From: Undaria pinnatifida
Lineage: Eukaryota > Sar > Phaeophyceae > Laminariales > Alariaceae
Assembly: GCA_012845835.1 (NCBI GenBank)
Contig: JABAKD010000005.1
Span: 6,762,655-6,826,654 of the forward strand
Length of the DNA stretch: 64,000 nt
Direction: 5' to 3'
This document shows positions 5,293 through 47,600 of this stretch, piece by piece. Below the pieces are notes generated by a model, which did not search any database, was not told the DNA's origin, and saw nothing but the letters and a program-made list of their open reading frames with translations. Made by a program: the position numbers and the translations under genes. Each line of letters begins with the position of its first letter. Positions within the stretch are counted from its first letter, which is position 1.

Positions 5293-6552
5293 TTACTGCA
5301 GGAAACTTCAACCCCAATTCCAAGTAGGTCGCAGTCACCAATGTTCATTAGAAAGAACTGCATGCAGTATGACACCCGTTGCTATTTCAGTCACCTTACA
5401 CGGCTGAACTAGCTCAGACTGAAAAAAAAGTGGTTCCTTCCCACGAACATAATACGTTGGGGGGGGGTGTAACGCAGATAGATGTAGTCGCAGACTAGGG
5501 GGTGAGGGGGAGTGCCCCGGAGATACATATGATACTGCTGACGACACTTGGTGCTACGAACTCTGGAGTAACTTTTTTGTTTCGTTAAATAGAAGGTACT
5601 ATGCAACAGTGACTGACGTAGCTCAACAGGTAGACGCGTACCAGGTAGTAGGGGTACGTAGCGCGTTTTGGAACAATGTATACAATTCCTCAAATCTGAG
5701 GGCTACTCATTGTCGTTGGGATGCGTTGTGTGATTACAATGCTACCTAGTAGACTAGGTTGTTGCGATGGAATTGTTCATCGGGTTGCACTACCGTTCTT
5801 AAATTGAAAAGACTGCTTAAATTTTTTTTAATCGGGGTGGCAAAGAAAGGGCAGCGTATTTTAGCAGATACGGCCGTGGTCTGGTTCCAAAACCAGCAAT
5901 TTCGTTCAAGAAAAGTTGAGGGGGCTATCGTAGAACGACTCTCTACTACTGTAGTAGTGGCCCCTCTATAGCGCCGCTATTTGCTATTAATAGTCGGAAA
6001 CGCCGGCACTGTAGCGGCAACCGGTACCACTCCGCATACACACTGCCACCACTTACTACTGGCTGTTCTGCGCCGAGAAATTTGCGCTAGAGCGAGCAAC
6101 CGGCACAACTCAACCGGCGCTACAGAGAGGGACCGGCACTAGTATCCGTATATCAGCCACATGGCTGAAATAAACCATCATCAGGTAATCAACAGATAAG
6201 TAAGGGAGATTTTTACGAACACCGTGTGGTACAGAGGACTTTTCACGGATCCGATCCACTGGATCCACCCGTGTGTCGTCGACGTACAGCATCGATCGGC
6301 CCTCTGACAAGAAACCGAGATATTATTGTGTTGGTACCACATATTTCCTATTAGAGAGAATATGTATCTAACGCTAACTTCATTCAGTATGACGGCTGTC
6401 GAATTTCTTATTTTTGTAAGGGTATTGGGCGGGGACACAGAGTGCCCCCTGCAGGTCTGCCATTTGAGCAGGTCCTCGGAGAGTACTCACTTTCTCAGCC
6501 TTAGGAGAGACGTAGCTTTATTAGATTCCACCAGAGCGGAGGATGACTTCTG
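5293..6552. other. no gene recognised; dispersed repeat pieces
   Basis: At 5617-5636 a tRNA A-box-like stretch (TAGCTCAACAGGTAGACG) precedes a TACCAGGTA site; no matching B box was found. A segment at 5866-5950 is repeated in reverse at 61962-62045. A GC-rich CCGGCAC/CCGGCG-containing stretch lies at 6000-6140. Open frames are short and lack splice support. Confidence 0.4.
5866..5950 (+). repeat. dispersed repeat F, copy 1
   Basis: It matches the reverse strand of 61962-62045. Shared blocks include GGCCG(T/G)G..CTGGTT, AATTTCGTT, AAGAAAAGTTG and CTATCGTAGAACGACTCT. Confidence 0.6.
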
Positions 6553-6578
6553 AGAACGGAGGCGCGCGCCTCCGTTCT
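6553..6578. repeat. perfect 26-base palindrome
   Basis: The bases AGAACGGAGGCGC at 6553-6565 are followed directly by their exact reverse complement, GC-rich at the centre. In RNA this would be a stable hairpin. It lies at the edge of an unassigned region and marks no gene end that I can support. Confidence 0.9.
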
Positions 6579-6689
6579 ATTTCCTAGCTATCTCGAATAT
6601 AAAACGCCAACCTTATCATACGAAAACCGGCCAAATTATCTCAATTCAATTATTACAGGCCTTTTGAGGCCGTATCTTAACACTAGCCC

Positions 6690-7010
6690 ATCCTGATGAG
6701 CCGCATATGCAGAAATATGGGAGATTCGGGGAAACTCCGGTTCTACGAACTAGACCATGAGTCGAAGATGCGGCTCCTCAAAACCCACTCCCACACCTCT
6801 AACGGCCTGGCTACGGAGCCAGGAACACGCGAAGGAAAGCAGTTAAAGGAAACGCAGACCCTACAACAAGGCAAACCACCCATCAAACACCTGCCGCGTA
6901 CCGCCGGTGTGGCGGGGAGGGGGCAGGAAAGGCTCTACGGCAAACCAACCACAGCAAAGGTACTATGGCGAGGCGAGCCTCGTCGATATGGAGGGGAACA
7001 CAGGCGCTAA
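6690..7010. other. hairpin-rich segment of unknown kind
   Basis: A stem of TGATGAGCCGCAT (6694-6706) pairs with ATGCGGCTCCTCA (6768-6780) with one mismatch. A second hairpin CCTGGCT-ACGG-AGCCAGG lies at 6806-6823. A third, CGAGGC..GCCTCG, lies near 6969-6982. A plus frame covers the segment without a recognisable domain. It may be part of a mobile element leader or a structured RNA, and I cannot name it. Confidence 0.4.
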
Positions 7011-9760: not shown

Positions 9761-10690
9761 AAGCTAACTTCCGTATGAGGCTCTTTCTTCTAGTATATAT
9801 ATAACAAGTGGGCCTGTTGTGCATTCGCGTTCCTACATTAAATAAATAAAGTAGTACAAAGTGGGCAAAATGCCGACCTTCTAATGAGCACCCCTAAGGC
9901 TGCAACGCCAAAAATCGCGCAACGTAAGGAGGATGTTGTCTATAATAACACATGCTATGGACTTACGCGTGACACTTGGCGTTCGAAAAAGGTGGTTAGA
10001 AGTAAGCCCATCGTTTGGGTCGCCTGACGTACCGTGTGAGATCTGAGCGAGTTTTGACGTCCCAAGAGGTGCTTTATTAGGAGGTTTCTGTGTGGTCGAT
10101 GCACCCTCGCCGTTCTACTTTGTGGACGAAATCGGAAATCGGGGGGTCCCAGGTGCCAAGGGTTTTTATGCGTATAACGGCATAGATCGCCGTGCTTTCG
10201 GCTGTTCTGGGTAAGTTGTGTCTGTATGTACGCCCAGAAAGTAGATCGTATCTCGCGGAGGCACCCAGAGACGAAAGTACCTGGTAGTAACGAAATGGAA
10301 ACACGTCTGTCTCTGCCTGCCTGCTGCTGGCAACACAGGATTCAATTAATTTGTTGTACTCGTAGTAATATAATATTTCTGTGGACAAATAAGCCAAGTA
10401 CTTTTTTTCAGTTCGCACTCCTACTGCAACGCTGCAGTGCACGTATTATTGTTATTTAATAATATATACTGTTGTACATACCTGGTGCATAAAACGGAAT
10501 AGATGTTGCGGTGGCGTTGGTGATGTTGTCGTCGTTATTGTTGATGATGGTGACTGTCGCCCTCTCGATTTCCTTCAATTGGTTATATTGTGGTCTCGCG
10601 GATGCAGGGTTCTCGGACGTTCGGCCCCGCGTTTTGCCGTGAGTCGGAGGGGTGTGGGGTTGATGCGAGAAGGAAGCACCAACCAACAAC
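9761..10690. other. no gene recognised
   Basis: Short frames only. A TACCTGGTA site lies at 10278-10286. A GTTGTTGATGATGG-type low-complexity stretch lies near 10500-10560. Confidence 0.35.
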
Positions 10691-11282: not shown

Positions 11283-13191
11283 GTATATTGTAAAAATTAA
11301 AATACACTCCAGCTGTGAGATCGAAGATTTTGTCGAAACTCATCTTTGCGAGCTGCGGGTGATACTCCGATCGCGCGTATTACGGGTTGTGTGTCCTCAT
11401 TAAGGATATAGGTCGGCGACTCCCCTTGCAACTACAGTGTAGCTATCAGGGTCAACAGGGTGATGTTAGTCAGTCTGTGCACGGAAACTATAAAACCCGT
11501 TTTTGAGGGGGACAAAATCTGACGGCTGTGGAAGGAAATGCATCAGTTTATCAAGTGTATCCTGTAAGTCGTAAAACCGGTGAGGGGAGGGCGGAGTTAG
11601 ACGTGGGGGGGGGGGGGGGGGATCATGTCGCATAGATGTAGGGGTTTGCTATACGCGTCGTGCTAGGTCTAGGCGATATTTCGGGTGGTGGGGAAGGAGG
11701 GGGCGTTGGGGGCGGGGGGGGGGGGGGGGATTGCAGCAGCGGCATGGATGGCGCTAGAAAGATAATGAGGTGATATAAAGCGTGTGGAAGTGTTTATTAC
11801 TCTGGCAGATTTCGATGTTAGGTGGGACGTTTGAGCAAGAGGGAGCGCGGAAAAAAAAAAAAAGGGAGGGGGGGGGGGGGGGTGGGGGGGCGGGGGGGGG
11901 GGGGGGGGGGGGGAAGGTTTGCAAGAGGTTTAGGTCACATATAATATAATATATATCTTTGATCTCACAGCCGAAGTGTATTTGAATATTATTTGTGACC
12001 TAAACCTCCTAAAAATCCCCCCCCCCCCTCTTGCTCTCCCTTACTCAAACGCCCCACCAAATATCAAAATCCGCCACATTAATAAACACTTCACGCACAG
12101 GATATCACCTCATTATCTTTCGAGAGCCATCCATGCCGCTGTGTTTCCCCCCCCCCCCCCCCCCCCCTCCAACGCCCCCTCTTTCCCGACCACCTGCACG
12201 ATCGCCTAGACCTAGCACCACGCGTATGACAAGCTGATACATATCTTTGATCTCACAGCCGAAGTGTATTTGAATATTATTTGTGACCTAAACCTCCTAA
12301 AAAATCATCCCCCCCCCCCCCCTCTTGCTCTCCCTTACTCAAACGCCCCACCAAATATCGAAATCCGCCACATTAATAAACACTTCACGCACAGGATATC
12401 ACCTCATTATCTTTCGAGAGCCATCCATGCCGCTGTGTTTCCCCCCCCCCCCCCAGCCTCGAACGCCCCCTTCTTCCCCATCACCCGCACCTTCGCCTAG
12501 ACCTAGCACCACACGTATAACAAACCCCTCACCTAAAGCCCTTCCCCCCCCCCACCCCCCACCCCCGCCCCCACCCCCCACCCTCCCCCCCCAACCCATC
12601 CCAACCCCACCCCCTCGAACACTCCACCCTCTCTTTACTCACTGATCGTACGACTTACCCCAGGATATACACGATAAACTGATGTATTATTTCCAAAAAT
12701 GTCACATTTATCCCCTCGAAATAATGTATAGTTTCCAGGCACATATCGAGCTGCCCCCCCCCCCCCCCCCGCCCCAACCCCCCCCGCCCCCAATAATATA
12801 CTGGTGCCAAAACCGTCAGATTTATCCCCTCGAAAGGATTTATAGCTTACATGCACAAATTGCCCCTTCCCCCCCCCCCCCCCCCCCCCGCCCCCCTCCA
12901 AACCCGCTCGCTTTTGATCAAAACCAGGCCCCCCCTTTCCCTTCACAGCTGTCAGATTTTGTCCCCCTCAGAAACGGGTTTTATAGTTTCCGCGCACAGA
13001 CTGACTAAAATCATCCTGTTGACCCTGATAGCTACACTGTAGCTGTAAGGGGAGTCGCCGACCTATATCCTTAATGAGGACACACAACCCGTAATGCGCG
13101 CGATCGGAGTATCACACACAGCTTGCAAAGATGAGTTTCGACGAAATCTTCGATCTCACAGCTGGAGTGTATTTTAATTTTTATAATATAC
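11283..13191. mobile_element. foldback element with long inverted arms, whole-looking
   Basis: The outer 250 bases are inverted repeats. The left end starts GTATATTGTAAAAATTAAAA and carries CAGCTGTGAGATCGAAGA; the right end at 13191 is the reverse complement with few differences. The inner parts are also inverted about a centre near 11955: the left half is full of poly-G tracts and the right half of poly-C tracts. A block of about 285 bases is tandemly duplicated in the right arm (about 11960-12244 and 12245-12530). No transposase is seen. Proline-rich frames are by-products of the C tracts. The right end abuts a second copy at 13181. Confidence 0.8.
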
Positions 13192-14050: not shown

Positions 14051-14204
14051 GGTATGTAACACAACCTTTGGGTGTGGTAAACAACGTGTTAAAGCTTCAT
14101 AATTTGTTGTACATGGATCGCAAGACAAAATATTTCAATCGATAGGTACAACCAGTTACCATTATTTTCTGACATCGCTAATTATATGAAGAAGATATCT
14201 ACAT

Positions 14205-14815: not shown

Positions 14816-16462
14816 CCCGCTGTCGTCAAAGATGTTGTGGTCCTTCCTGTAGATGTCGCGTCCATGTCTGGTGCTCTTGTTAGTGGTGCTCACGAAAACA
14901 TGCCCTAGCGTGTAGTAGATGATCGCTGAGTGGTGTTCCTGTCCTTTAGATCAAGCCAGGTAGTATATATCAACGCGACCGCTTGCTTGAAAACGACAAA
15001 TAAAATTCCTCACAACACGTATATTGTACAGCCTGGTAGGCCTGTGAGAGACTGCAGCATGCTGCTGCAGCACACCTGGTAGCATTGGCTATACCTGGTA
15101 GCTGCTGTGCTGCTGTAGAAGCTCTCACATCATTCACTGTTGGAAGGAGGAACGAGTAAAAGGCGAATGAAATATGTCGTGAAGAAAGGCGTGAAACGGA
15201 TATGTGTGTGTGTTCTTCACATTAAACTATGCTACCCGTTTGTTTGGTACTTTGGTGGGCTATCATATGTTTTAGCGCCCTGGCTTCTGTCGCCGAAACG
15301 CATACAACTCATATAGTCTATACATACATACAAGTACAACAGCCAGTAAACAAACCAGGATGATTACGAAATTATAACTTTCGGCAACGTCGCAGCAGCA
15401 GCAGTGGCAACCACGCTTGGACGACTGTTTGGTGCTGCCGTTCGCTTCATTCCACACCCTGCCCGATGCAGCAATCAAAGTAGACGCATGCCTCTGACCT
15501 GTGCAACATCAACAGGAGCAAGCAGCAGCAGTGATACTATGTTTTCACCTCTCTTTTGTGTGGCGAGACTCGTTCTTTTTGTGTGGATATTACTTTGAGG
15601 CGTTTTGACGTCATCAGGTGTATGTTCGATGGATTGGTCGATGCTCAGCTTTTTACAGGCTTCGTCTCACGGCGGCCACACGTCTTCTATTATACCTTCT
15701 TCCTCGCGAAGGGTTCACCTGTGGGTAGGCCGGTGGTTCTGTGCAGTGCCCTGCAAAGCCAGAAGGCCAAGCTGCAAAAGACGGAAAGGTAAGACACCAG
15801 ATATATATATGCTGTGATGAGAGATCGAGGATTCCGTCGAAACGTCGAAACTCATTTTTGCAAGCTGCGTGTGACGCTTCGATCTCGCGTGATACGGGGT
15901 GTGTATTTCATCAGCAGGTCATACCGGTAGGTCGGTGACAGAGCCCAGAGTGCTACATGTCATCAACAGTACCATGCATGGGCTTTTTTTCGCACGGCGG
16001 CGCTCGTTTTCCCCAGCAGGCAGGGCAACTTTGCGCGAATGCGGCGAAATAATCGGCTAATAATGACGATCGATGATCTCGAATGGCCACAAACATTGAC
16101 CAATTAAGCTTGCCGAATCCTTGACGTGTGCCATATTAGTTGACTGACCGACCGTCTACTTACCATAGCAAAATAGCAACATATTACCGCCAGTATTTGT
16201 ATTGACGGGTGTTAGAGTCCTTGACTGGTCGTTGACAAGAGTAAAACTAGTATAATAAAATAAATGCTATTAATATAATATATACCAGTAATAAGGCGGA
16301 TAAATCATCTTGACGCGTCCGAAGACTTAAACACCAGTCTCCAGTCTCCAGTATCCTTGTCACGAAGCCTACTCAAACTTAATACTATATCTATTCAAAT
16401 ATGAATATGAGGTTTAAACAGTCCTTATATTACCGTCTACATTGGCATATTGGTTCTTTCAG
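14816..16462. other. no gene recognised; repeat fragments
   Basis: CTG/CAG-rich stretch with TACCTGGTA at 15050-15117. A minus frame at 15272-15478 has a hydrophobic stretch (FVIILVCLLAVVLVCMY) followed by basic residues, but no supporting splice signals. A terminus fragment of the foldback family lies at 15812-15905. An upstream exon of the gene at 16463 may lie here but was not fixed. Confidence 0.35.
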
Positions 16463-16593: not shown

Positions 16594-17690
16594 CTCCTCA
16601 AAACCAGGAAAGAACGTGACCTTCCGACTTGAGTACGAACACAACTGCGTCAGTGCTGCTGCTGCTTTCCTTGCCGGTGCTGTTGGTCCTGTTGGTGCTG
16701 GAGCTGGTGCTGTTGGTATTGGCGCTATGTCGTACAACCTCCCCGGGCAAAACCCGGGGTTCGTTCGAACGGACCCACCTTCCACTCCTTGCACGGGAGA
16801 CTTCGCCGAAAAACTCAACTGCACCGAAAATGGGTAAGAATTCAAATCAGTTCAACGCGGCCCGGGCGCGGAACGGATTTCTGTATCCAGGAGCTGGTAT
16901 CAGCCCAAGCCCCAATACTTGGTTGCCTCGCGGCCTTGCCTGTCTCGATGGTCTAGAGTTCTTGGGTGGGGGCTGGGGCTGGAGTTTAGGATGCTGTTTG
17001 ATGCGGGGATGATGTTTTCTGGAACTGATGTTTGCCCTGTGTTGCCGGTTGTTTTGTTGTTTTCGAGGCTCGCTGGCTCTAAAACCAGTACAACGGATCT
17101 GGTATAAGACTAGAAATGTACCTGGTAGTCGAGTTTGATGGTCGCCACGATATGCTACCAGCAGCACCAGCAGCAGCGGCAGCAGCAGCAGCAGGGCACA
17201 TACAACACCAAGCAGCAGCATGCAGTAGTATCAGAGCAGCAGCAGCGGTGTTTTATGTAGTGTAATGTAGTCCGTGGTCGGCCTCGTAGCCTGTTGGCAC
17301 CCCCTTCCTTTTCGGAACGCATCGGTACAGCAGCAGCAGCACACATGTGTTCTTTGTTTGGGCCTTTTTGTTTTGTTGTGTTTTTGTCGTTTTTTGGCCT
17401 GTTTTGGGCACAAAATAAATCCAATTTTGTCAGATTATTTCAAATACGTCAGCTGTGATTGTGTACAATAGAGTAGTTTGTACCCAACGTCAATTGGTCT
17501 GCGCCGCTCCCTCCCGCCCGCTTTGCGCAGTTTTTTTTTCTGGATCGGAGCTTTTTGCGTCCTGGTGGTGCTCTGCGGGCTGTGCTCCTGCTATGTCGTT
17601 ACGCCTCTGTTCAGATGGTACCGAGAGAGGAAGAATGTCGAAAAGACTCCAGCAAGCGACGCGACAGATAGGAAACGCAACTCGAAAAAG
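16463..17690 (+). CDS. putative single-pass membrane glycoprotein, two internal exons
   Basis: Exon 16463-16833 follows an acceptor GGTTCTTTCAG and ends at donor GTAAGA. Exon 17531-17690 follows TTTGCGCAG and ends at donor GTGGGT. The first ends with two bases of a codon and the second supplies the third base, so the frame continues. The first exon encodes a poly-Gln run, possible N-glycosylation sites (NVTF, NCTE), an Ala/Gly-rich stretch and a Cys pair. The second begins with a membrane segment (FFFWIGAFCVLVVLCGLC) followed by a basic tail rich in Arg and Lys. This suits a type I membrane protein. The phase-0 upstream exon and the downstream exons were not found. No family is recognised. 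The phase match could be chance (one in three). Confidence 0.42.
16562..16592. repeat. CAG trinucleotide repeat
   Basis: About ten uninterrupted CAG units lie inside the candidate exon at 16463, encoding Gln in the open frame. On the other strand they read as Cys or Leu runs, which are shadows. Confidence 0.9.
17155..17345. repeat. CAG/GCA-rich cluster in intron
   Basis: Interrupted CAG arrays occur at 17158-17240 and 17327-17342. They lie between the two candidate exons of the membrane-protein model. Confidence 0.75.
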
Positions 17691-17778: not shown

Positions 17779-18262
17779 GCTGTGCCGGTGGTTCATTACA
17801 GCCGCCGAGTAACTTATTGCATTGTATTTATTGAGGTCGAGGTCGTAGGTTCGAGCCCCGCAATGTTTTTCCTTTTGCTTTTCCTTCTCTTTTTATTGCA
17901 TTATCCTTTTCTTTTTCCTCCCCCTCCCCCCCTTTTTGTTGCAAATCGTCTGGTGTTCTGGTTTTCATCCTTTTTTCTACCCGTGTTTTGCGGTTCATTG
18001 CGTGGCCAAATCACCTTGTTGCTGTACCAGGTATTATGTTTGCAAATTGTACCTCTGTCTCGTAGTTTGTTACTTGTGACCGCGGAGCTCGTCTCTCTAG
18101 CAGGCATCACCGCAGACACTGGTTGTGCTGTAGTTATGTGGAAATATCCAGTTACTGCTGTGAAGGACATACGCACGGTTTGTCCAGAAGGTCGCTACGT
18201 GAGGGTGAAACATCTCGCGAGTTGGGTGCGCTGGAAAGTAAAAAGTAGAAAGTGCAGTGATG
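17779..18262 (+). repeat. diverged SINE copy
   Basis: A B-box-like GTAGGTTCGAGCCCC lies near 17847. The family tail (ACGGTTTGTCCAGAAGGTCG) lies near 18175. TACCAGGTA sites lie at 18025-18033 and 18269-18277. Open frames across the segment look like by-products. Confidence 0.45.
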
Positions 18263-18289
18263 ATAATATACCAGGTATATTCTTCCCCC

Positions 18290-20320: not shown

Positions 20321-21390
20321 AAAAAAAGAAGTGTAGGACATCATTGCACGAGGCTCCGCTCCACGGGCGGCTGACGCCGCCCTCAACGCGCGCAAGAAAG
20401 AACACGACAAAAAAATGCGAAGGGGGCAGAAAGAAGAGGCGCATGATTTGGTGCAACTACGTAGCGATTTGCTAATGCCAAGAGCTACTTGTGCAGAGAG
20501 ATTACCCTGTGCTGTGATGTGTGCTTGTTGGCGGTGTCACGTCCTGATCGGCAGTACGGATGTTGTAGTTTTGTTGGTGGGGGGCACGAAGAGGACCGAA
20601 ACAGGACAATCACATGAAAGCAAAAAGACGAGGACACGTAGTATAGAACCAACTATCGACTCGTTTTTGCTGGTCGGTGTTACTTGCCCGGCTATTTGCA
20701 CCGATTACTTGCTCGATTATTTGTCCCGGTTACTTGCTCGGTTACTTGCCCCGGTTCCTTGCCCGGTGACAAACTCGTTCTTCTGTATGCTTTCAGCTGC
20801 ATTTTTAAGGCATTCGTTCTCTTGCCCGAAGGCTACGAGAAACTTGGTACGAGGAACGAACGCCCTGTGTTATCTCCCTATTGAGCTTGCCACAACCCCC
20901 CCGGGACTTCAAGTAAAAACAAAATCCCTAAGGGGAACCTTGTATTAGACATACACACCTACATACGTCGCATGATACCTGGTACTCTTATGGTCGAAAG
21001 AAAGGGGCAGCGCAGCGCGGCACAGCATAGGCCCGCACCGCACGGCAAGGCGCGGCGTTCCGCTTCTGGGTTATAAAGCTGGGCTGAGCTGAGCTGGGAG
21101 TGCTTTTTTTGTGATTCAACGACGTAGTACGTGCAAACCTGGTGTAGTAGTACCGATATCTGGTATTTGTACAAGTATGACATTTCGAATGACACCTGAC
21201 ATGTACGAACAAGATGTAAGTGCAGCAATGCACGCAGCGCGGCACAGCATCGCACAACACCGCACCGAACGGCAGGGCACGGGACCACACGGCACCTCAC
21301 GGCCCTGCGCGACTGAGCTTGCGCTGCGGTGCGCTATGCTGAGCTGAGTTGATGAGCCAAGCTGAGTTGATTTCAGCTGGGACCTGGTGA
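20321..21390. other. no gene recognised; GC-rich simple sequence
   Basis: At 20680-20770 TTACTTGCC/CGGTTACTTGC units recur. At 21000-21060 and 21230-21355 degenerate GCGCGGCACAGC/CACCGCAC and GAGCTGAG units dominate. A TACCTGGTA site lies at 20976-20984. Confidence 0.4.
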
Positions 21391-21869: not shown

Positions 21870-22176
21870 ATTCATACATGTAACTCGCAGATCCGGGGTC
21901 ACTAAGCGGGCTCTTCTCCCTCCTCCCCACTACGGTACGCGCCTTCGTTTTTATCGCGAGAAGACTTCGGCCCTTTCTTCCCTCGTCGACTCGCATCGAA
22001 TTGCTTCTACCCACGCTACTAAACAGGCTCTATCAGCACTTGATTCCTTTTATGTACCTGGTATTATTTTTCCAAATAAAGCCAAACGTCCGGCCCAAGC
22101 AGGATTCGAACCCCAAAACCAAGATTTCTAGTATCATAGCATTCGAGTGTAGTCACTCGTAGACCACCGGGGCGAC
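21870..22176 (-). repeat. diverged SINE copy
   Basis: Read in reverse it begins with GTCGCCCCGGTGGTCTACG near 22175. A B box GGGGTTCGAATCC follows near 22112, then body blocks and CTCCGG-like tail remnants. A TACCTGGTA site lies inside (22055-22063). Confidence 0.55.
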
Positions 22177-22264
22177 GTGCACAAGCGTAGTAGGTGCGTA
22201 CCAGGTACGCCCTTCACGTGTAGAAATGTATATGCGTCATTGTTAGCTGTTTTTCATTTTATTT

Positions 22265-22982: not shown

Positions 22983-23405
22983 ATTTTTCTCCGGCGGATT
23001 GAGAAAATTGAGCTTAAGCTCACCACACTTCCACGTATTTTTATGCATATCGTGTGTCATTTTAACTTGATTGTATTCGCAATCCAGCGCTATCATAGCC
23101 GGCGTATCCTTCAGTTCCCGTGGTACGAGTAGCGACAGCTCGAACTGTCCCTACCGGCGGTCACCGTTTCTGCTCCAGCAGCGCAAGCCACCTTTGTAGA
23201 CGGATGCGTGAGTATGTCAATCCGACTTGATCCCTGAGGATCAGGTGCGGCGGAGAACCCGGAACGTCGTCCTTCCGGATAGTGTGGGACTGGCGCAAGC
23301 TCACCCACTAACACAACCCCCCCCCCCCCGGCCATGAGAAAACAGCCGTCCGCCGGACTTGGTCCAGTTACAGTCCACCCTACACCTTACCCATTCGGGC
23401 GTTGG
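22983..23405 (+). repeat. dispersed repeat G, second of a direct pair
   Basis: A diverged copy of 22265-22685, in the same orientation about 718 bases downstream. It contains a poly-C run near 23318 that the first copy lacks. Confidence 0.75.
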
Positions 23406-25510: not shown

Positions 25511-26660
25511 GACAGTAGGCAATTGGTTAACTTTGTACCAATGGTCAAATGGACCAATACCACCCTGTATTTCCTTAACAAATGACGTCGTCGACAGACC
25601 ATGGGTTTTTAGGTCATGGATTCGGAACTCAACGTGATTTTATTCGCAGATTCGGGTCCTGCCGATGGTGAAAGGTCAGCCAATTGCCATCGTACCCTAG
25701 CTAAGCCTTGTAACAATGGGTGGTGTGGTGGCTCTTGCGAGGAGTTTGACCAACCCGCCCGTGGCCTCCGGTGTTTTCCGAACGGTTACGAACGGTCTTA
25801 CCTCCCTTTTTTTGTTAGCGTCACAGCCCGTACCGGTATCATAATAGGTATTAACCCCTATTATTTATACTATCGTTTTGTTGGGGACACATCCATGGCA
25901 GGAATTGGTGTGGAGGGTCATTTTGTCGGTGGTGAAAGGGGTTTCAGCCCTCCTACGTTTCCGAAGATTCTTGTCCCTTTTTTTTCAACCAGAATTAGCC
26001 TTAACTCTCGTATGCCTTCTGGCTATTTGCTCTGTGTGTGTGCTTTTTTTTAGTTCCTTCAGCCCTACGTTTCCGAAGAGTCATGTCCCTTCATTTACAA
26101 ACAGGATTAGGCCTAACTCTTATAGACTATACCTTCTGGCTATTTTGCTTTTTTTCTGGCTTCTTCTTTGACTTGTTTTTTGCTGTGTGTGGTGTTATTC
26201 GTACCCGGCACGCTGACATTTCATTTGATTTCCTCTTATATACCAGGTACCGGGCAGGCCTACTGGTGTATGCTAGCACTGCAAAAATTGTGGCGCACTA
26301 ATTCGGCGAACTGCTGTATTAACTTGTTCCGAAAGCTGTCATGGTGGGTGCACTTTGAAGGCGTCAAGCATCGTGGTTCTCAGTTCTGAATCGTTGATGC
26401 CACTATTGAAACCCTCGAGCCACATACATAGATAGCTTCGTTTGACACCCGCCGTATATTATTCCTATTATACGAGTACCTGCCCTCGTTTAGATTTACA
26501 AGAAGGGCAATATGAGACAAAGGTTAATACTGCTGTGCTGCTGCTGTCCCGTAAGCGTCGAGCGCATGAACGCTTTTTTTTTGTTCTTGTCATACCCAGA
26601 ATGAGCCTGCTGCTCTGAAACTTCACTAGCAAAATGCGATACCTGGCATGATATTATATA
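25511..26660. other. no gene recognised; tandem duplication
   Basis: Two diverged copies of about 105 bases lie at 25943-26050 and 26056-26165 (TACGTTTCCGAAGA, CCTTCTGGCTATTT). A fragment of dispersed repeat D lies at 26165-26235. A TACCAGGTA site follows at 26241-26249. Confidence 0.45.
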
Positions 26661-27899: not shown

Positions 27900-28260
27900 C
27901 CGCTTCTCCCGTGTAAGCTACGCACACCCCTGTGACGGCAGCAAGGAAAGCGATGATAGGCTCTCTTACTATTTACCAGTATTACTTTTTTAAGGCAGTT
28001 ATAGGCTCTCTTTTTTGCTTACCTGGTATACTTTTTATTTGTCCATTTACGGCACGTGCACCTTATTATTTAGGAAATCAGCGATGGGCTCTGCTGTTTC
28101 GTCTTACTCGTTTCCCCCCGTGTATGCTACGTAAACATAGGATAATAGGCTCTCTTGTTTTGCTTACGTTCCCTGGAAGGCGTTGACGGGCTCCCTTGTT
28201 TTGCTTGTTGCCATTCTTTGTTTTTTACCCGTGCACGCTGCGTACACCCCTGGTGTATGT
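27900..28260. repeat. diverged tandem repeats with GGCTCTCTTGTTTTGCTTAC
   Basis: Two motifs alternate about four times. One is GGCTCTCTT..TTGCTTAC (27957, 28005, 28087, 28148, 28189). The other is CCCGTG(T/C)A.GCT(A/G)CG(C/T)A (27909, 28116, 28228). A TACCTGGTA site lies at 28020-28028. Confidence 0.6.
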
Positions 28261-30628: not shown

Positions 30629-30885
30629 CGAGGTACCAGGTATCACTCTTCGTCTGAAATGGCTTCTGAAGGACGAGGCCCCTTAGACCAAAATCGTCGG
30701 AATTTTGAGGATTTTTTTTTTTTGTATGATTCTCGTTAGGTACCTAGGCCATGGGATTTTTTCGTCCGGTAGTAGTAGCGGTTTTACTTTTCTCCAAATC
30801 AGTTTCGGGGAGAGGTCCCCTTAAGCTCCCAAATTGAGGAATCTCAGAAAAAAGTGGTGCACCCTCTATCGTACCACGCGTCCAT
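30629..30885 (-). mobile_element. MITE-like family B, copy 2, with a TACCAGGTA scar
   Basis: Reverse copy of the family at 4961 and 63634. Ends are CGATCGAGGTACCAGGTATC on the left and GTGCACCCTCTATCGTACC on the right. Compared with the two other copies, the left end carries seven additional bases, CCAGGTA, placed directly after GGTA. Confidence 0.75.
30634..30642. other. TACCAGGTA site interrupting a MITE end
   Basis: The sister ends read GAGGTATCAC (63634 copy, reverse) and GAGGTAGCAG (4961 copy, reverse). This one reads GAGGTACCAGGTATCAC. The difference is a duplicated TA flanking CCAGG. Confidence 0.85.
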
Positions 30886-33035
30886 CAGCTGTTTGTGGAT
30901 ATGATGAAGCATTTTTTTTGTGGTTGAGGGGGGGGGGGGCGGAGGTAGAACGACAACATTGATTTTTTAATTTAGAGTTCCCTTGAAGGCCAGGTCGTGA
31001 CGAAAATGTGGAAACCTGCTGCGTAGTGGTATCTATTTGCGACGGGTCGTCGTGACGCCCATGTGTCAAGTAGGGGGGGGGGGGGGGGGGGGGGGTGGAG
31101 CCTTCACGCTTGAAGCAATGATGCAGCCGACGGTATTTTCAATTGGTATTTTTCGAAGTACCAGGTATCACATGCAGCCTGCAATGACGAGTTTCGACGA
31201 ATGTCCCGATCTCACAGCTGAGATACAAGGTATATAATTTCTTTTTTTAATCATAATACGATTGCTCGCCGCATGTTCTCTAAAAGGAGTAGGGACTAAC
31301 TCCTCAAACAGATAGTAGCTATACACAGGCAAGGCAAGCGATAATGCCTGACAGGCGTGATAATGCGGGTACCTGCTGCAAACCCTGCCGCCGCATCAGG
31401 GGAGAGCGGGATATACCCACAAGATCGCGAATAACCTACCATCGTACCTGGTGGCACTCATTGCCGGATGAATCTTGGAACTCCAAAAAAAGATCGAAAA
31501 CACAAATTTCAAACCCGGAGTTGGCGACTAACAGAGGCAAGGTTTTCGGTAAAAACGACGGCATCGGTGCTCACCGCTGGTGCGACCACCGTGTTGTGGA
31601 AGGATTTGTGTCACAGAAACGACAACGAGGACCTCCGATAACAATAAGATAGAAAGGCTGGGTAAACCGCCACAGAGGCATGAGTCGCCCTGTACAATAT
31701 GAAGGTAGGAAGGGGGCGGTATATCAACACACAAGTCTTGTGTGCAATATGCCCTTTCATCTCATTAGATAATACTGTATCGCATTATTCTTGGTAAGGA
31801 TTTCATTCAACGGTTCATGCGAAAGCTCGACCCCAGAACATAACTGGATGTTTTTATGTATTAAACTTTTCATTTCACCATCGAATCAAAACCTAAAATC
31901 GAAATGTAGACGAGCAGTCAGTACCCACTGCCTGCTGTAATGTACAAACAAGGCAAGAAATGTTTGTTTAATTTCAACACCAATCCATCCAAATCCAACC
32001 CTTATTCCCTACCTGGCTCTGTCTGCATATCAAACACTTTTAAGGGGCCCTTGCTCTCGCTCACGCCACCTTTCCTACAAATGCCCACCAGGGCTCATTG
32101 AAGATCTACAGAGACGGATACGTTGATCCCGCTTGCAGTAGGTCTTACAGCTGACGTCGAGTACGGAGAAGGTTTTACTTCATGACCCAACGACAGGAAC
32201 AGGCGAAAACTGCTCTCTACCAGGTATGTCCTATGCCCTTACAAAGGGAACGTAGCTCTATATATGGTACTATTGCTTGCCTGCGCGGAAACTACCAACA
32301 CCGCTAGCCTGAAGCGGTCAAACTATGTAACTACCAGCACGGCGGTGCATACCGAGCCTAGCACTCTCTTGCAGAGTTTGCTCATCAGACCTGGCTAGGC
32401 AACTATCAACATTATTCCCTCAAATCAGAAATCGAGGATTCCACATCGGGACATGGAACTACTTGAATGCTGGGGTAAAACTGCTGGCAGCACGAAGAAA
32501 TTGGTGGAAAAATTACTCCAAAAACTCACGTTGCATCTACTATGACAGGCGTACACCCTATCCCGAGCGACGAAACGAGACCCCCTAAAAAGGACATCGC
32601 GTACGTGCAGAAAGCTCAACAACGTGTTGAGCGGAGCACCAACACCAAAACCGAACCGCCTGATGATGTATTCCCTTTGGAAAGTCGATTTTGAAGGACT
32701 ACAAGGGACACGTGGCTGGCGACTGGCACCAGACACATTTCGAACTGCACGCCGCTACGCTCCCCTTTTAAGTCACCCCAACCCGGTAAAAAAACTCCTT
32801 CGCTTCATACAACTGCGATCTCGAACAACACGGCCGCCTAAGCTATATGGAAACCCTTGCCTAGCTGAGGTTTCACATGACAAACAGGAAAAACAACGCA
32901 ACGCCAAACCGAAAAATAATTAGAGGGAAAAATAAAAGAGATTACCAGGTACACATACCTGGTGCAACAGATCATGGAAATGCAAACCAACACCACAACC
33001 TCAACCCTCACCCGGTCACACAAAATAACGCCACA
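30886..33035. other. no gene recognised; 3' flank of the nrdB-like gene at right end
   Basis: Poly-G runs lie near 30928 and 31073-31096. TACCAGGTA sites lie at 31159, 32218 and 32943. A foldback-terminus fragment lies at 31175-31240. Plus frames up to 102 residues lack coding character. The right end is the 3' flank of the minus-strand reductase gene. Confidence 0.4.
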
Positions 33036-36000: not shown

Positions 36001-36805
36001 ACGCCACGCAAGATCGAAAAACAGGATAACTGCTGGTACTTGTAAGTATTGTACTGTTTTTAATGTGGACTCTCCATAGCTACTATCTCAAGAAATTCAA
36101 AAACCCTCAAAAGAAAATAAAGCGACTACACCAGCACCCTCATCCCGTCCGCGTCATACCTCATCATCCTGGATCGGGAAAAGCACGAAGCGCCCAGGGT
36201 TCTCGATCAGCATCGGCTCGGGCTTGAGGCTCCCGTCGATTTCTCTCCGTCGCATGTCAGAGACCTCTAAACACCCCTTGAACTCGTTCTCCTCGCCCTC
36301 TGCCGTCTGGGGTGGAGAGGATTTTGTATGGAAAGGCAAAATTGAGCAATTCTTTACCAGGTAGTAACTGATGGTAAAAGGGGCAGATTCAAAAAAGAGG
36401 CACACGCTGGAGAGGGAAAGGGGCACACGCTGCCACCAGTGTATAGGGATAAATGAGCGCTGAGGGTAAGTCTATAGATGGGGCGGAGGGACGCGCCACA
36501 TGTGGGGGTCAAAACGCGGAGAGAGAGCTAGCGTCGTTGCCAAAGCTTCGCCGCTGCGGGTGCTGTGGACTGCTGGTGCTACAGCTGCTGTGAGCCGAGC
36601 ATTCAAAAATACAATTTGAAAGGACTCAGAAAACATCTCAGCCGTTGGGGGATGGGATCGAATCGCACAGCCACGTCAGGACGCGCGTACTACTCCAGGC
36701 ACCAGGACTCACCAGCGCCATTTTCTTGAGTCCTTCCAGGCCTTCCTCCGAGAAGGATCCCGTGCGGTTCAGCAAGTCGCTCTCCTTCAGCGCAGACGTA
36801 GGCAT
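33036..36805 (-). CDS. RNR2: ribonucleoside-diphosphate reductase small subunit (class I R2), six exons
   Basis: It makes the R2 subunit of cytosolic class I ribonucleotide reductase, which holds the diiron-tyrosyl radical used by R1 to form deoxyribonucleotides. Exons: 36713-36805, 36160-36306, 34973-35134, 34388-34654, 33485-33691, 33036-33302; all introns are GT-AG and phase 0. The joined frame has 380 codons, normal for eukaryotic R2. Motifs in order: [11 protein letters not shown] (about 66-76), [67 protein letters not shown], and the R1-binding tail FTLEADF. Expected ligands are all present: D129, E160, H163, E223, E257, H260, with radical Tyr167. The start ATG at 36805 opens a short N-terminal extension that ends in KKMAL. 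Intron 1 holds a TACCAGGTA site and intron 4 a foldback-terminus-like remnant. It looks intact. Confidence 0.97.
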
Positions 36806-39800
36806 GCTTGAGCTGGAGGTGTTTGCTTCGAACCGGTGTCCGAGGTTTGAAATATCTGCTCGATTTTTTTAAATGAGGCAACGCAAAGTTCAGTTTTCGT
36901 CAAAACCGACCGACCGCATCAGAGCGACACACCGGCGGGCTCTGTGGACACGCGCGCGTTTCGGACAGACCACTAGACAGCACACTGAGGACACCCTCAT
37001 AACCACGGGTTTAGAAAAACTAGGCGGGACACGGCTTGTAGCATCCCCGAGAGCGAGTGCTACACAACGGCTGACCAAAGAGCATCCCCCTCGTACACGC
37101 GGACAAGTCGACCTACACAAAAGGGGTCACGCAGACACCAAGCACAAGCGTCCCACCTTGCGTCTCTTGGCCGCAAGAGTGCTTGGTAGGTAGATGTAGG
37201 GTTGGATGTCCTGTTGGCTGTGCGGTGGTGGGTGCTGGGTGGGTGTAATGGGGTGGTGGTGAGTTGGGAGCGTGGCGCGTGTTGTGGGAGCTGGGGGGCA
37301 AATTTGCTCGACGATTTTCGAAAGGGGAGTTCAACCACACATTGACGTTTTTCCAGCCGTTTTTATTTTTTTTGAATTTGAAAACATAGTCTAGACTAAT
37401 AAATGAATTACGCCGCATTTTTCCGCACGGTCGTACGACGTACTCGTATCTTTATCCGTATCTTGTTGGCCTTTGGCTACCACTGACACATACATGATGA
37501 TGATGACTTTTTGCTTGCCGCCATATTGCCTGCAGGCTGCAGGTCGGCGGCGGCGGCGCGAAGCATATATTGTAGCAGCAGTGGGGGTATACCTGATCCC
37601 TCTCAAAGCTGTAACACCAGGGCATACACATGCACCAAACAGTAGCTACAGCAGTACCCACAGAACGTCGACGTGAAAAGCATGATGAAGAATCATACCT
37701 CTTTGGGCTAAACTATAAGGATCATTTTGTGAAAACAATAATATCTAAACGATTTCTATATAGCCGTCCAAATTGGTATTCACAGAGAGGCCGACTCATG
37801 AGCGAAGTCCAAACCACAGGGGCAGAACTCATCACCACTTTCTCACCCGGTTTGAATCCGATGGGGACGAAAATTAGCATATATACTGCTCTGGCATATC
37901 TGGAAGGATCGTCTACAAGTACTTTCTTGAAACCGATTAGGGTTCACCGCTTATCCGGGCCGGCGCAGGCGACTTTTACCTTTTTAGGACCTAGCGGTGA
38001 ATGAACAACCGAAACTCACTAATCCCGATATTATGTGGAAGTATCGAGTAACATGCCTACGATCCATCGCAATTGGTAAGGTGTCAGAGATCATTTTTAT
38101 GAAGATGTGTTTGTACCACATATTATACGACGAGTACAAAATTTGTGCGATTTTTCGCTCAAATCGGACTGAAGCCGCATTGGGGAAACGCGCACCAAAG
38201 GAAAGGTGAACTAATTTGGGAATGATTGTGTCATCTTGGACTGATCATTTTAACCATTTGTTACACGAGTACGAGTACGGAAGAGACCGATGGGCAGTTA
38301 GGGGGTGCACCGAGCTACGTCGTATTATTAGACAGACTCACAGCCAATAATGTGGTACTGTAAATAATGTCCAGGATAAGAAAGACGACTTGGGGTTGAG
38401 GCATGTTTTTGCTTTAAATCACCCGAGACTCGACAACATGAATGATATTATGTCCAAAAAACAACCACCAATCAAGCGAACAACAAGCAAGCAAATGAAC
38501 GGGCACCACAGACACAAAGCAACGGTTGGTATCATCGAGCAAGCACTTGGACTAACTTACCATGCAACAGATACAGCAATCCAGCTAATTGCAGTTCGTT
38601 CGTGGGTCGCTCCTGTTTTATATTGCGTGTTGCACTCCGTTGGTGGCAACGGTAAGAATGCTCTCAATGTGCACAAGGTGGTGCTGACCTTCGGCTCAAT
38701 CGGCGGCTCAATCGGCGCTGCTCCCCTCACGTTTGCTGATGCCATGGACCAGGTAACACAGGTAACAACGAACGAGATTGTCGACACTAACCCACTGCCG
38801 TTACCATCGCGTATGACTGTCGACACACCAAGAATACGCCAACAGCCGCGACGAACGATTTCGTCGTCCTTCCTCGATCCTAACAAAGCCAACCCAAACC
38901 GCCACCCTATCATTCATCCAACGACCGCGCCCCTGCCTGTGCTCGTCCGAAAGTGGGGTTGCCTATCCCCGCCGGATACTGCTACCATCGAGGCACAACA
39001 CGGGAAGGAGACGGGAAACAGAGAGACTGCCCCGTCCCAAAACCCGAAAAACATCCGTAAGACGGTAGCGGGGACCCTATAGTAATGGCTAGATACGAAA
39101 TCAAAGAGCAAATCGGATGCGCCACTCACACGGTAGACGGTTGTCCGACCAGTCTTTTGAACGGTCCCGACGCCAGGAAAAATGCCGGTAACGAAATCCG
39201 GGAGTCGCGTGATTTTGGCGCCGTGAATTTGAACATTTCTGGTCTTCTTAAGCTTCATCGTTCTTACAAATTCCAAGACTAAATAAAACACAAAACACGA
39301 CCGGCTCGCTTTGCACGCGAAATCCTCACGTTTGCGGGCGAGTTTGACAGTGAGCGCTCGCGCTCAGTGCGAAGCGACATCGGTTTCAAACGCGAACTAT
39401 CTGGAAGCTACCTATCATACATGGCTCCTGCGACTAGATGCACAGGCTCCGCGTTTCGCCCTAAAACGGACGCGAGCGTGCGAAAAAACGGCGGCCACGA
39501 CAAGTCTTTCTCTACACCGTACGTAGCAAATACGAATAGCAATATACACCTATCCCAACAGCAACCGGTACTCCCATACCAGGTATCAGATGTTACGCAA
39601 GAAAGGGCAGAGCTGCCCTATGGCAGGGATTTCTTCCGCTTACCCCCCCCCCCCCCCCGGCCCCCCCGCCCCCCTTCGCAAGTTGCGGCGATTCAGGTAG
39701 CGTTAGGGCGTTGCCGAAGGCTCGAAGGCTACGTAAAAAAAAACTCACCCCGCAACATGCAAAACGTCGCAGCGGAGGCAGAACGTCTAAACGTGAAAGT

Positions 39801-40031: not shown

Positions 40032-41901
40032 CGCCAGTACCGCAAACGACAGGCACCCCACCGTATTCAGCACGGTGTGACTATCCGGCTCCACCACTTG
40101 CGCCCTGAACAGAGCGATCGCTTGTAAGCCGTAGGCGATGCAGAAGGCCTCGCAGATGGCGCGCCGGATGCGCCCGTCCCCTACTCCCCGCACCTGAAAA
40201 ACGACCCAGCCCTGGTCACAAGGGCAATTTTTTCACCACAAGGGCACAGAAAGCGAAACATTGCACACGGTAAGCGTAAGTAAAACAAAAACATTTACCG
40301 CAAGGCCAAGGGCAAGGGAATGGAAAACAAAACGGCAAGTGCAAGTAAAACGTACCAGGAAAATCTTACCATAATTCCACGCAAAGCGAAAAACGACACG
40401 GAAAAAAGTGCTACAAGGCCACGGAAAGTGAGCAACAAAAACGGCAAGGGTAAGAAAATGAGCGAGAACTCCGAAGGCTGGATGAGGACATCAACCCCGC
40501 TCCGAGCGCAGTAGTTTTGTATATGTGAAGGTGTGCCGCTCGCTGCCTTAACACCGTGCACATGTGTGTGCTGCAACGATGACAGCATACGGCAGTAGCT
40601 CCAACCTAGACTCATATTTTCCACAATCTTTATGTTCATAGAAATGCAAATTTCCTTACGCAACCGTCCTAGGCATGGTGTGTGAGCGGAGCAGCATCAA
40701 ACCAACACACTGTAAATTATACTCATAACACAGCACTGGTTTGATCTTAGGATTCAATTATTATACTCATAACACAGCACTGGTTCGATCTTAGGATTCG
40801 GGGAGTTGCGCATAATGATAGGCGTTCGCCAATAAGCATGCCAGCAGTATCGATATTCGCATCGCATGTCGTGTTCCCGGCGATGCACTCCTCTATAACC
40901 AAATACATATCGACAAGGCGATGCTGCTGTGCGCTAGCTACAGGTACCAGATCGACTGTGTTACGGAACAACAATGGATGGCTGTTGCCTACTGCCTTCC
41001 ATCTGAGGTCCCTCTATCTGGCTATCTGGCCATACCGTGAACCAATGAACACATACATTAGCCACAGATCGGCGTCAACTGCGTTACAAGAAGAACACCG
41101 GCCGAGCGGGTCGGCACATACACGATCATTCCTCGATGCAACTCGGAGGGCCAACACACGCCTCGGCGCCGCAAACAGCACTTGGACCGTTATACGTTCG
41201 GAACCTCCTGCACTACTACTGTTCCCCGGTCTTCCGCTACAAAAAAGAGCCAGCTCTAACTCCTACCAGTAGTGGTTTTACCCTGACACGTGTGTGGGCG
41301 TTGTAGCGGAGTTATCAAATACGAGGCGCCGAAGGAGGGCGCACAACAACGCCGCTACGAGGGGATATCATAAAAAAAATAAGGCAGATCGATTACATAG
41401 GCGAAGCACATCCAGCATTTTCGTCAGGACTCCCCGCAAAAAAAGTGTTGACCGTTTTCTGGCGCAAAAATGATCCAACTCTAATTTTTAGTACTTCTAA
41501 ACTTCGGCTAAAAAACGTGCGTGGGAGTTGCAATGGCGTTAGCATATACGAGGCACCACAGAAGGGATCACAATAACGCCGCTACGAGAGAATATTAATA
41601 CTGTGAAAAAAAATCATGGCAGACTACAAAAAAACAATGTGAGACAATACGTAGGTCGTTCTACCACTGGTCCGTTGCAAGTTGCAACGTCGTGTCATAC
41701 CTAAACAAAATCAAGGCAGATTGAGAGCGCAATGACACTAAAACTAAAATTCACTCGATCGCCGTGCACTGGCGAGTCGCGTCTTGCTTTACCTGAGCCA
41801 GCGTCAGTGCGCCGTACATCCTCACAAGCTCATGTTGGAAGTGGTTGTATGCGGACCCAAAGAGTGTTTGTATCAAGGAGTGCGGCATGACGAACGCTAA
41901 C
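39963..41901 (-). CDS. small multi-pass membrane protein, 3' two exons, 5' end not found
   Basis: Exon 41793-41901 (acceptor TTTTCTAG, donor GTAAAG) and terminal exon 39963-40193 (acceptor TTTTTCAG, stop TAG) join in phase 0. The first reads LAFVMPHSLIQTLFGSAYNH then FQHELVRMYGALTLAQ. The second reads VRGVGDGRIRRAICEAFCIA, followed by two hydrophobic stretches (AYGLQAIALFRA and TVGCLSFAVLASFYGYC) and a C-terminal FELPGAKG. The first exon opens with one base of a split codon, so at least one exon lies upstream. A SINE at 42400-42714 lies in that direction. The membrane arrangement is inferred from hydrophobicity. I recognise no named family. The terminal exon end is tandemly duplicated. Confidence 0.62.
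40194..41792. other. long intron with direct duplications
   Basis: A 40-base block (ACTCATAACACAGCACTGGT) is repeated at 40719-40757 and 40763-40801. A block of about 100 bases is repeated in diverged form at 41290-41390 and 41518-41630 (ATACGAGGC, AACGCCGCTACGAG). A GGCAAG/AAGTGCAAGTAAAAC-type repeat lies near 40260-40350. Confidence 0.55.
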
Positions 41902-43984: not shown

Positions 43985-44190
43985 CTTCTATTCGACATAA
44001 TCTGATTCAGTACACCCAGAGTCCGTGCTGATTTTTCATCCTATAATCAATAATAGAGAAATACAAATTCTGTGGTCACACACTGTGAAACCAAACAGTC
44101 GCAATTCATCAAGGTAAAGCAAGTGAAGTGCTAGCGTACCGGGTACGATAACACAACTAAACAAGCCAGTCCATGAAAAAAAGACCACAA
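43985..44190 (-). repeat. dispersed repeat D, copy 2
   Basis: On the minus strand it shares TCGTACCCGGTACGCTAGC, GAATTGCGACTGTTTGGTTT, GTGACCACAGAATTTGTAT and CTCTGGGTGTA with 59340-59530. A shorter match lies at 26165-26235. Confidence 0.7.
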
Positions 44191-44317
44191 AAGGAAGAAT
44201 AAAAGAAAAAAGGGATAGGCCTGATGCTCGGGTTGTTAGTGCTGTCGAGTCATGATGGAACATGCGGTGGACGTCGATCGCTACTGCTCCGAAGTGTCTA
44301 TCTGCTGCATTATACTA

Positions 44318-44650
44318 GGACACACAACCCGTAATACGCGCGATCGGAGTATCACACACAGCATATTTACAAGCTGTGTGTGATACTCCGATCGCGCGTA
44401 TTACTGGGTGTGTGTCCTCATTAAGCATATAGGTCGGCGACTCCCCTTGGATTTACAGTGTAGCTTGTACCAGGGTCAACAGGGTGATGTTAGTCAGTCT
44501 GCGCGCGGAAACTATAAAACCCGTTTTTGAGGGGGACAAAATCTGACAGCAGCTAGCTGTGGAAGGGAATGCATCAGTTTATCAAGCGACAACCAGTGAG
44601 CAGAGGGCGGAGTGTTCGAAGGGGTGGGGGGGGGGGAGGGGATTTCCAAC
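44318..44650. mobile_element. foldback family fragment with a head-to-head junction
   Basis: The bases 44320-44365 are the inverse of about 44376-44424 (GGACACACAACCCGTAATAC against GTATTACTGGGTGTGTGTCC). They form a near-perfect hairpin with a loop of about ten bases. The left arm continues to the poly-G run near 44630. It resembles the junction of two copies seen at 13181-13191. Confidence 0.7.
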
Positions 44651-47600
44651 AGCTTTAGGACGCATAGCTGTAGGACATTGTATGATAATACTGGCAGACG
44701 AGCACTACACTCGGGTATTTGAAAGGCCACACCTCCTTTCATATTCCACATTCAACAGTTCATCTGTGGCGCTCACAGTCGACAGCAGCAGCGCAGCACC
44801 ATCACTATTAATAGGTAACCAGCACCAGCGCCAGTGTCTGCGCGTTGAACAGGACTGACCAAGATGGGAAAAACCTTCGACGTTCGAACAAACCCAATGC
44901 TCCATGCTATGAAATCGCGACCAAAGCCAACCTCGGGACACTGGCCGCACAAGACAGGACTCTACAACTCATCGACGGCGGCAATCTTTCCTATCCGCAG
45001 CATACAAGTAGCACCGAGCATTCATCGTGCGACGCGCGTCTCATCTCTGCTATCACGCCGTCTGCTATTATTCCGGTGTGGTGCCGATACCGTGCAAACC
45101 AGGGCGCAAACACGCAAGATATTGCAACATCCCCCCAGGACGCATTTCCAAGCTGACTTCCTCCACAACGGAGGGATTGCAAACGCCGAGCGATGCGTCT
45201 ATGGAAAGACCTCAGCGATATCTTTCCAAATCCACCATTTTCATGGTGTGTTCCCCCCTCAAATTGGACAAAGTAGTCTCGGAAATTCGTCCCAGGGAGG
45301 GTGTTTGTGTCTTTTCTTACGCGGAATGTACAAAAGAGAGTCCGCGTTGCTGATGCTGATGAGGGCGTGGCACTGCTGCTGCTGTGGCAAATGCCGTCCG
45401 TGATCTTGCTCTCCAATGCAAAACAAGCAGTACATTGGCATGCATGCATGCAACGGCAACACCGAAGAGCTCATAAACAACTCACGATCTTCATTGAGTT
45501 GCACAGCCGTCCCTTTATGCTGCTGCTGTACCCGGCGTTGCTCTATGCTGTGGAGCTCGTACTTTGTAGCGATCACCTACCTTGCGCTGCTGTTGTTGAT
45601 GCTATGCTGCTGACTTTATCTGTGTTGATCGACATTTTTTAACCAAGTGAACTCACCCGCCATATACAACGCAAATTACAGCGTGCAGGAGCAGCACTCG
45701 ATTCACATCTCCCACCACGCGAGCCAAGATATTTCCTAGCTTTGCTCCTAACCCGCGCCCCCCCGAAGAGGAGCGCTGGCCGCGCTGGGGTGATCTGGAA
45801 CGCACAGTGCAGTCGCGGCGCCCGTGTGGAGGAGCGCGTCGGAACTGGAACAGAGAAGTGTCTCACGTTTAAAATTAGGAAAAAATAAAATGGGTTTCCA
45901 TCTTTACAATAAAGCGTTTTCCTTGTCCCCCCCCCTGCCTCATTCATGCCTCATCAGCATCTCGTCCTCCTCTCATCCAGCATCAGCGAAACAACTGCAG
46001 CTAGTACAGACGATATCTCGTTCAGAGGGAGCTATCTCCGACTGGGATACATCAATACGTATTTGACGTCGATCTCCCCCGGCGTGTTCACAGGGAGGAG
46101 TACTACAAAGTTCTGTGAAACAGGAATACTGCAGTGATCTTCGAAGCCAGATCATGCAACTTTCACGCCGCTGGGATGCTCCCGCGGCGATGCTGGTAAC
46201 AGCTGCATTGCTGTTGGAGGGGCCCGCCACGAGCTCGGCATTCATCTTCTCGTAAGTGATTGGCGTGTCGAGTACGCCCTCGAGCTATGTGTGGGCTCAC
46301 AATCGGCACTGATTTACATACTGCGAGTACTTATTGTGTTACTCTGCTGTATGGCAGTTGCGGCGTTGCCGCTTGAACATGTGCAGTTTGAGGAGCTTGT
46401 TGGTGAGCAGTGCACCGTACTCATGTGATATCTCTTGTGCCTGGTGAGCAGCAGCAGTAGCAGCAGCAGAGCATGTTACGCAGGACAACAGCCTTTTATG
46501 GTAGTTGCGCTGTAACGTCGTGTAGTTGCACTAGCAAGTCGTGTGCAGAAGATGTGCAGTCACTACAGTCAGAATGCGAGATGGGCATAAGAGTGATGCA
46601 CGCACTTGCTCGGCAGTCAGTTCAGCTGTTGTCCGCCTTGTGACTTTGAACTTTGAACCGACGATCTACATGACGTCGTGTTGTGTGCTTCAAGATCGTG
46701 TGGTTGCATGCTACCGTCTTGTACATGCCGTGTTCCTGATGTGTCTCTGCGTGTCTTAGTTGTAGTGCTGCTGCAGAACTGCCGTTGTACTGCTGCCGCT
46801 GCTGCTGTACTGCTTCAGCTGCTGATGGTGCCGTGCTGACCACGCATCAGCTGGGAGATGGAGCAATTACTCCAAAGGTTGCTGGTTTATGAACAGCAGT
46901 ATGAACGTAACGATATTGGCGTTGGTTGGACGACTGCTGTTGTGAGTTGTGACTGTATTCGTGGCGTGGGGTTTATTGTTTATTGGCGTTGTGCACTCAA
47001 CCTCGATTGCCCGCTCTCGTCGCTTCTACCTGTTGGACCACAGGGCGTGCTGCCCCAGCCAACTTGACACGAGATGAATAACCTACCAGTTCAAAAATAT
47101 GTGCCCATCCAATCAATCATCAAGCGAGTCCACAACACAATGACCATGTAAGTATGATATAATACGTGGTCTAACAAGGAGTCGTGTTCGATCATCGTTA
47201 CGTGGTCTAGAACTATACACAGTCGCGTTGCTTTTACGAGTAGGTCCATGTAAGGTTTATACCTTTTGCTGCAGTACAGTGTCAGTACGCACGTTATCGT
47301 GCACCGTCTTGTACACAAGGGCACGTGATACCAGGTAGCCCAACACTCTGTCGTAGAGTCACGCTCGCTCCTACGATAGCACGAATCGCGAGGCATCTAC
47401 ACCAGTGAGTAGACCATGCACCGCAACACCGCCTTTGGCGCCTAAACCTCGCCCCGTGTAACCGCGGTTTCCAGCAGATTATACGTTTACCCTTGTCCGT
47501 AGATATTTCCGAAAAGCCACTAATCGAAGACATGCGAGCCCGTCTCCCGTTTCCACAGTAGTTGTCGAGGCCCTGCAAACTGCAGAAGAGCCGCATCTCT

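Follow-up and report, generated by a model that had tools for sequence, protein, structure and literature searches.

The nine-base word TACCWGGTA (W being A or T) occurs 18 times, counted as exact matches on both strands, in the 64-kb stretch of Undaria pinnatifida contig JABAKD010000005.1 analysed here (referred to as the window), and is probably the footprint left on excision by a family of cut-and-paste transposons that target TA and behave like Tc1/mariner elements. Of several types of scar in this DNA, it appears to be the most frequent. We observed an excess of the word, a clean 7-bp difference between repeat copies at one site (30634), and a class-wide excess of words in which a few bases with complementary ends stand between two TAs (TA-X-TA, where X is the number of bases between them). 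From these observations we infer the element, its ends, a five-base stagger in the cut and the repair that followed. The fixed spacer within the word, its complementary ends, the 7-bp unit and the occurrence of derivatives one base short all fit excision of an element that targets TA.

The sites read TACCAGGTA at 5639..5647, 18025..18033, 18269..18277, 22199..22207, 26241..26249, 30634..30642, 31159..31167, 32218..32226, 32943..32951, 36355..36363, 39577..39585 and 47329..47337, and TACCTGGTA at 10278..10286, 15092..15100, 17119..17127, 20976..20984, 22055..22063 and 28020..28028. Each is an exact match and a proposed footprint, and all 18 positions given in a preliminary description of this DNA proved correct. 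Dinucleotide shuffles of the window (n = 100) yielded a mean of 0.28 copies and a maximum of 2, while Markov models of orders 1, 2, 3 and 4 predicted 0.34, 0.46, 0.50 and 0.95, respectively. Orders 5 and 6 gave higher expectations (4.0 and 9.2), because such models already hold most of the word itself. Set against the shuffles and the models of orders 1 to 4, the 18 copies amount to an excess of about 20- to 60-fold, which bears out the earlier estimate of about 35-fold. A ranking of 9-mers within the window under the order-3 model likewise placed TACCAGGTA at the top once homopolymers and CAG repeats were skipped, and 1.05 Mb of viral control DNA (L001-L060) contained only 5 copies, or 0.3 per 64 kb.

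The spacer between the halves of the word is fixed at one base (TACC-N1-GGTA, n = 21; spacers of 0 and of 2-11 bases gave only 0 to 4 each), and CC faces GG inside TA borders in 18/18 sites, which thus all have the self-complementary ends of a Tc1/mariner footprint. A comparison of the flanks of the 18 sites found no longer repeat in common, consistent with the previous statement that the sites are not copies of one longer repeat. None of the 18 lies beyond 47337, where the last site ends (P ~0.007, weighted by TA count), so that the last 16.6 kb are indeed free of them as first reported. One argument did not survive: the A/T centre had been taken as a sign of mismatch repair, but TACCAGGTA and TACCTGGTA are reverse complements, the same word read from either strand, and the A or T at the centre is therefore a trivial strand effect, uninformative on repair.

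The second line of evidence comes from repeat copies. Seven bases were deleted from each site to leave TA, and both versions were aligned to the rest of the window. A diverged copy spans the site in 3/18 cases (30634, 31159 and 18025), and in each of them plain TA gives the better fit, a clean one only at 30634. This site lies within a dispersed repeat, two copies of which have plain TA. In the copy at 63857..63893 (minus strand), GAGGTACCAGGTATCAC is faced by GAGGTATCAC, a clean 7-bp difference, and once the word is reduced to TA the two face each other with no gap; E is 2.6e-19 over 140 bases as TA and 8.7e-9 ungapped. The second empty-site copy, at 5193..5244 (minus strand), also scored better with the TA version (74.0 vs. 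68.3 bits for the word); in a plain alignment the 7-base gap was placed a few bases rightward with this copy, whereas it fits at the site with the first. At 31159, on the edge of a repeat copy, GAAGTACCAGGTATCAC is matched by GGAGTATCAC, with plain TA, in other copies (E 1.7e-4), the homology to the left being just 6 bases long. At 18025, the copy at 14599-14546 (minus strand) scored 38.3 bits as TA vs. 28.3 bits as the word, with an additional 5-base gap needed. Weak alignments at 22055 (TA, E 0.79), 32943 (TA, E 0.11) and 18269 (word, E 0.11) were not counted. No site with a W centre has a convincing copy in the window that keeps the word.

Similar differences affect other words. Among 27 indels of 4-12 bases found by scanning between repeat copies, four can be read as TA-X-TA vs. 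TA, and two of these are words enriched in the window, TATCATA (23091..23097; TA in the copy at 22353-22397) and TACGAGTA (23124..23131; TA in the copy at 22377-22423), both facing plain TA in one paralog pair. The two repeat copies concerned (22353-22423 and 23091-23147) differ by these two units and are otherwise ungapped. Empty copies were seen for 4/67 sites of five enriched words vs. 6/941 other TA-X-TA (Fisher P 0.003, or 0.018 without 31159), the 67 having skipped a low-complexity filter that was applied to the total of 1008.

The five words emerged when DD-X-DD words were ranked for all dinucleotides (DD), with look-alike flanks removed and simple repeats masked or set aside. Without CAG and C-run words, TA words rank first at X of 3, 4 and 5. 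They are TAGACTA (11 observed vs. 3.0 expected) and TATCATA (17 vs. 6.5), both with X of 3, together with TATTAATA (9 vs. 0.94), TACGAGTA (10 vs. 2.1) and TACCAGGTA (18 vs. 0.5). The outer bases of X are complementary in 5/5 of these top words, in contrast to the next-ranked TAAGCTA and TAGTCTATA. Some non-TA words are high as well (GAGATCGA, 10 vs. 2.2; AGGAGTTAG, 5 vs. 0.2). Taken as a class, near-palindromic TA-X-TA words with complementary ends exceed the mean of 60 local shuffles at X of 3 (64 vs. 36), 4 (27 vs. 8.6) and 5 (36 vs. 9.3), with no clear excess at X of 6 or 7. Under the order-3 model the class stands at 2.0, 2.6 and 4.3 times expectation, respectively, vs. 0.6 to 1.35 times in ten viral control sets, an imperfect comparison because these sets are AT-rich and drawn from viral contigs. 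The excess persists at 1.6 to 2.6 times without the five enriched words; it includes some repeat copies, since the four TACACTGTA belong to one family and 2/3 TACCSGGTA (S being C or G) to another. The same model showed TA words with X of 2 to be raised (71 vs. 45) and non-complementary TA-X-TA to be mildly raised, up to 1.4 times. Across the shuffles and the model, AT, CG and GC flanks gave weaker, scattered excesses (z up to 3.4). Only 1/67 of the enriched words lies after 52292 (P 0.0003, for a boundary picked once the positions were seen), in a stretch rich in retroelement-like sequence.

Short TA-X-TA units could also arise by mutation without any transposon, for example if breaks at TA were repaired in an error-prone way or if slippage took place between short direct repeats. 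Repeat copies do differ by small indels at many dinucleotides, the 30634 site holds AGGTA-CC-AGGTA, which slippage could shorten, and the searches of the window did not find a source element. However, the presence of the identical 9-mer at 18 positions whose flanks are unrelated calls for a sequence-specific source, and the excess is greatest where TA flanks and complementary ends are combined. We consider such an origin very unlikely.

There are 20 copies of the word with one mismatch (38 with 0-1 mismatches minus the 18 exact, vs. 9.5 expected for 0-1 mismatches together), in keeping with the more than ten mentioned in the preliminary description. Mismatches at the outer T/A number 7 vs. 2.9 expected, those at the six core positions 10 vs. 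7.7, and copies with a C/G centre (TACCSGGTA) 3 vs. 0.45. The last start at 44137, 51820 and 59385. Those at 44137 and 59385 belong to one repeat family, and because a third member of it has TACCCGGCA at about 26202-26210, the TACCSGGTA in this family looks ancestral rather than a scar; as scars, these two copies were set aside. Derivatives one base short were found 14 times vs. 4.5 expected.

Judged from the word and its setting, TACCWGGTA might instead be a palindromic site for a homodimeric DNA-binding protein, such as a transcription or chromatin factor, dispersed in non-coding DNA and kept by selection. A fixed one-base spacer would suit such a protein, as would outer positions and a centre that tolerate variants more than the core does, a slight shortage of A beside the motif (3/36 half-sites vs. 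~7.7 expected), and close pairs formed by CACCTGGTA at 15073 with the site at 15092 and by the site at 32943 with TACCTGGTG at 32956. In addition, a ribonucleotide reductase small subunit gene (R2) has one site a short way upstream of its first identified exon and another shortly beyond its stop codon. Nevertheless, the copies of the 30634 repeat that lack the unit do so by a clean 7-bp absence and not by the substitutions through which a binding site would be lost. Furthermore, 18 sites surround only one clear gene, R2, and the other enriched TA-X-TA words and their empty copies would be left unexplained. On balance, a binding palindrome appears rather unlikely.

For the excision footprint, we propose that an element inserted at TA, duplicating it. 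On its departure the ends, predicted to read 5'-CCAGG..., would be cut on one strand at a point five bases inward, leaving CCAGG 3' overhangs on either side; these would pair as CC/GG about one A:A mismatch, and end joining would give TA-CC(A/T)GG-TA. The words TACGAGTA, TATTAATA, TAGACTA and TATCATA would have been left by additional families whose overhangs were 3 to 4 bases long. Of the original case for this reading, the repeat copies now provide plain TA, cleanly at 30634 and in part at 31159 and 18025, and other complementary-ended TA-X-TA words have proved enriched, whereas the A/T-centre argument is trivial and the CCAGG-ended element was not found in the window.

Several results weigh against excision. 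The predicted source element, with TACCAGG...CCTGGTA ends, is absent from the 64-kb window, where the 39 pairs of TA-bounded inverted arms all lie within inverted copies of repeat families, and AT, CG and GC give as many (52, 46 and 40). No transposase (DDE/D) match was found among 30 open reading frame (ORF) references, which cover 21/40 ORFs of at least 150 aa in the window. For 15/18 sites the window offers no usable repeat copy, one weak alignment (18269) retains the word, and at any single site, with copies that lack the unit, loss is indistinguishable from gain. Empty copies occur at 10/1008 tested TA-X-TA vs. 5 to 29 events for other dinucleotides, so that TA is not special by event number, and control flanks are not flat (e.g., AT with X of 6, z 3.2; CG with X of 5, z 2.9 to 3.4). 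Lastly, the core substitution variants described above are not in excess, a poor fit to old neutral scars (P 0.013 for the shortfall under a rough model).

The combination of many scars and no elements would follow if the DNA had been systematically cleared of TA-bounded elements, whether through an almost complete wave of excision or through ciliate-like programmed elimination, with a scar rather than a precise TA left at every site. The former positions of elements would in that case be marked by the scars of several families, among them one whose cut fell five bases inside its ends. We regard clearing on this scale as highly improbable.

If TACCWGGTA is an excision footprint, over-representation of TA-X-TA words would record transposon departures from a single assembly, with no need for the elements themselves, and the words would allow one to predict, for each lost family, how its ends read and how far its cuts were staggered. 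A five-base stagger would widen the range reported for elements that target TA, and since one clean form dominates, end joining in the source organism would seem to be unusually tidy.

R2, the single clear gene in a window that is otherwise gene-poor, lies on the minus strand at 33036-36306 and has at least five exons (36306-36160, 35134-34973, 34654-34388, 33691-33485 and 33302-33036). Each of the five is a multiple of three bases in length, and the gene model probably lacks an upstream exon that carries the start codon. The R2 relatives found were viral contigs, and plasmids yielded one distant R2; a conserved repeat of the window had no exact match in viral or genome contigs. The DNA looks nuclear and eukaryotic, given the intron-split gene and gene-poor surroundings. 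No TACCWGGTA site (0/18) lies within the five exons found, in agreement with the preliminary description, which had also placed one site in intron 1; the position of 36355..36363 agrees with this, 48 bases upstream of the first exon found and before a likely splice acceptor. The site at 32943..32951 is 84 bases past the stop codon. An R2 intron also contains TACGAGTACTATTAATA (35975-35991), two enriched TA-X-TA words separated by one base.

Elsewhere, 60585-60779 on the plus strand has R2-like codon usage and is a possible exon of a different gene, without a Pfam match. A possible long terminal repeat (LTR) retroelement at 52401-55959 is suggested by 190-base direct repeats, 94% alike and 3369 apart, which flank ORFs that look gag-like by eye and have no Pfam match; this candidate is nearly devoid of TA-X-TA words. 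An inverted-repeat family with ACACAACCCGTAATACGCGCGATCGGAGTATCACACACAGC is present in several copies (44332-44418 and 11283-13191). An identical 69-base tandem pair occupies 39894-40032 and overlaps the sole tRNA call (Arg, 39918-39994), which may be spurious. Between repeat copies at 11864-19050 there are long homopolymer runs of C or G that reach ~27.

The closest known systems are the Tc1/mariner excision footprints of Sleeping Beauty, Frog Prince and Minos; the element itself was not seen in the window. The enriched word TACGAGTA is, we presume, also the footprint of Minos. A 6-bp footprint is given for Minos in PMC10992017. Among the literature matches listed, no title concerned TACCWGGTA or a five-base Tc1/mariner footprint, which is not proof of absence. 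At least one of four exact strings was matched in 224 papers, and the 40 of these that were listed looked like unrelated studies in which sequences are printed. TA-targeting cut-and-paste elements leave TA, a few end bases and TA after end joining (PMC3878927, PMC2874221). For Sleeping Beauty and Frog Prince, PMC3878927 gives the footprint C(A/T)GTA, which has the same design as TACCWGGTA, TA borders with self-complementary ends, but a single C/G pair. PMC2874221 conflicts with this in giving TAG(T/A)CTA for Sleeping Beauty, a string that is also enriched in the window. The 2 to 4 bp between TAs reported for the superfamily (PMC7913693) accommodate the other enriched words, with 3 or 4 bases; TACCWGGTA has five, a further point against assigning it to Tc1/mariner. 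Internal eliminated sequences of the ciliates Paramecium and Euplotes are TA-bounded, have a proposed Tc1/mariner origin and are excised in very large numbers (PMC3464196). Excision there is precise, with a single TA left behind, whereas the sites in the window keep extra bases; evidence for a ciliate origin of this DNA was neither looked for nor found. Plant mariner/Stowaway elements leave TA-bounded remnants of their inverted-repeat ends at empty sites (PMC1925063). Clean footprints are reported to be rare among rice excisions (8/94; PMC4423477), in contrast to the window, where one clean form dominates.

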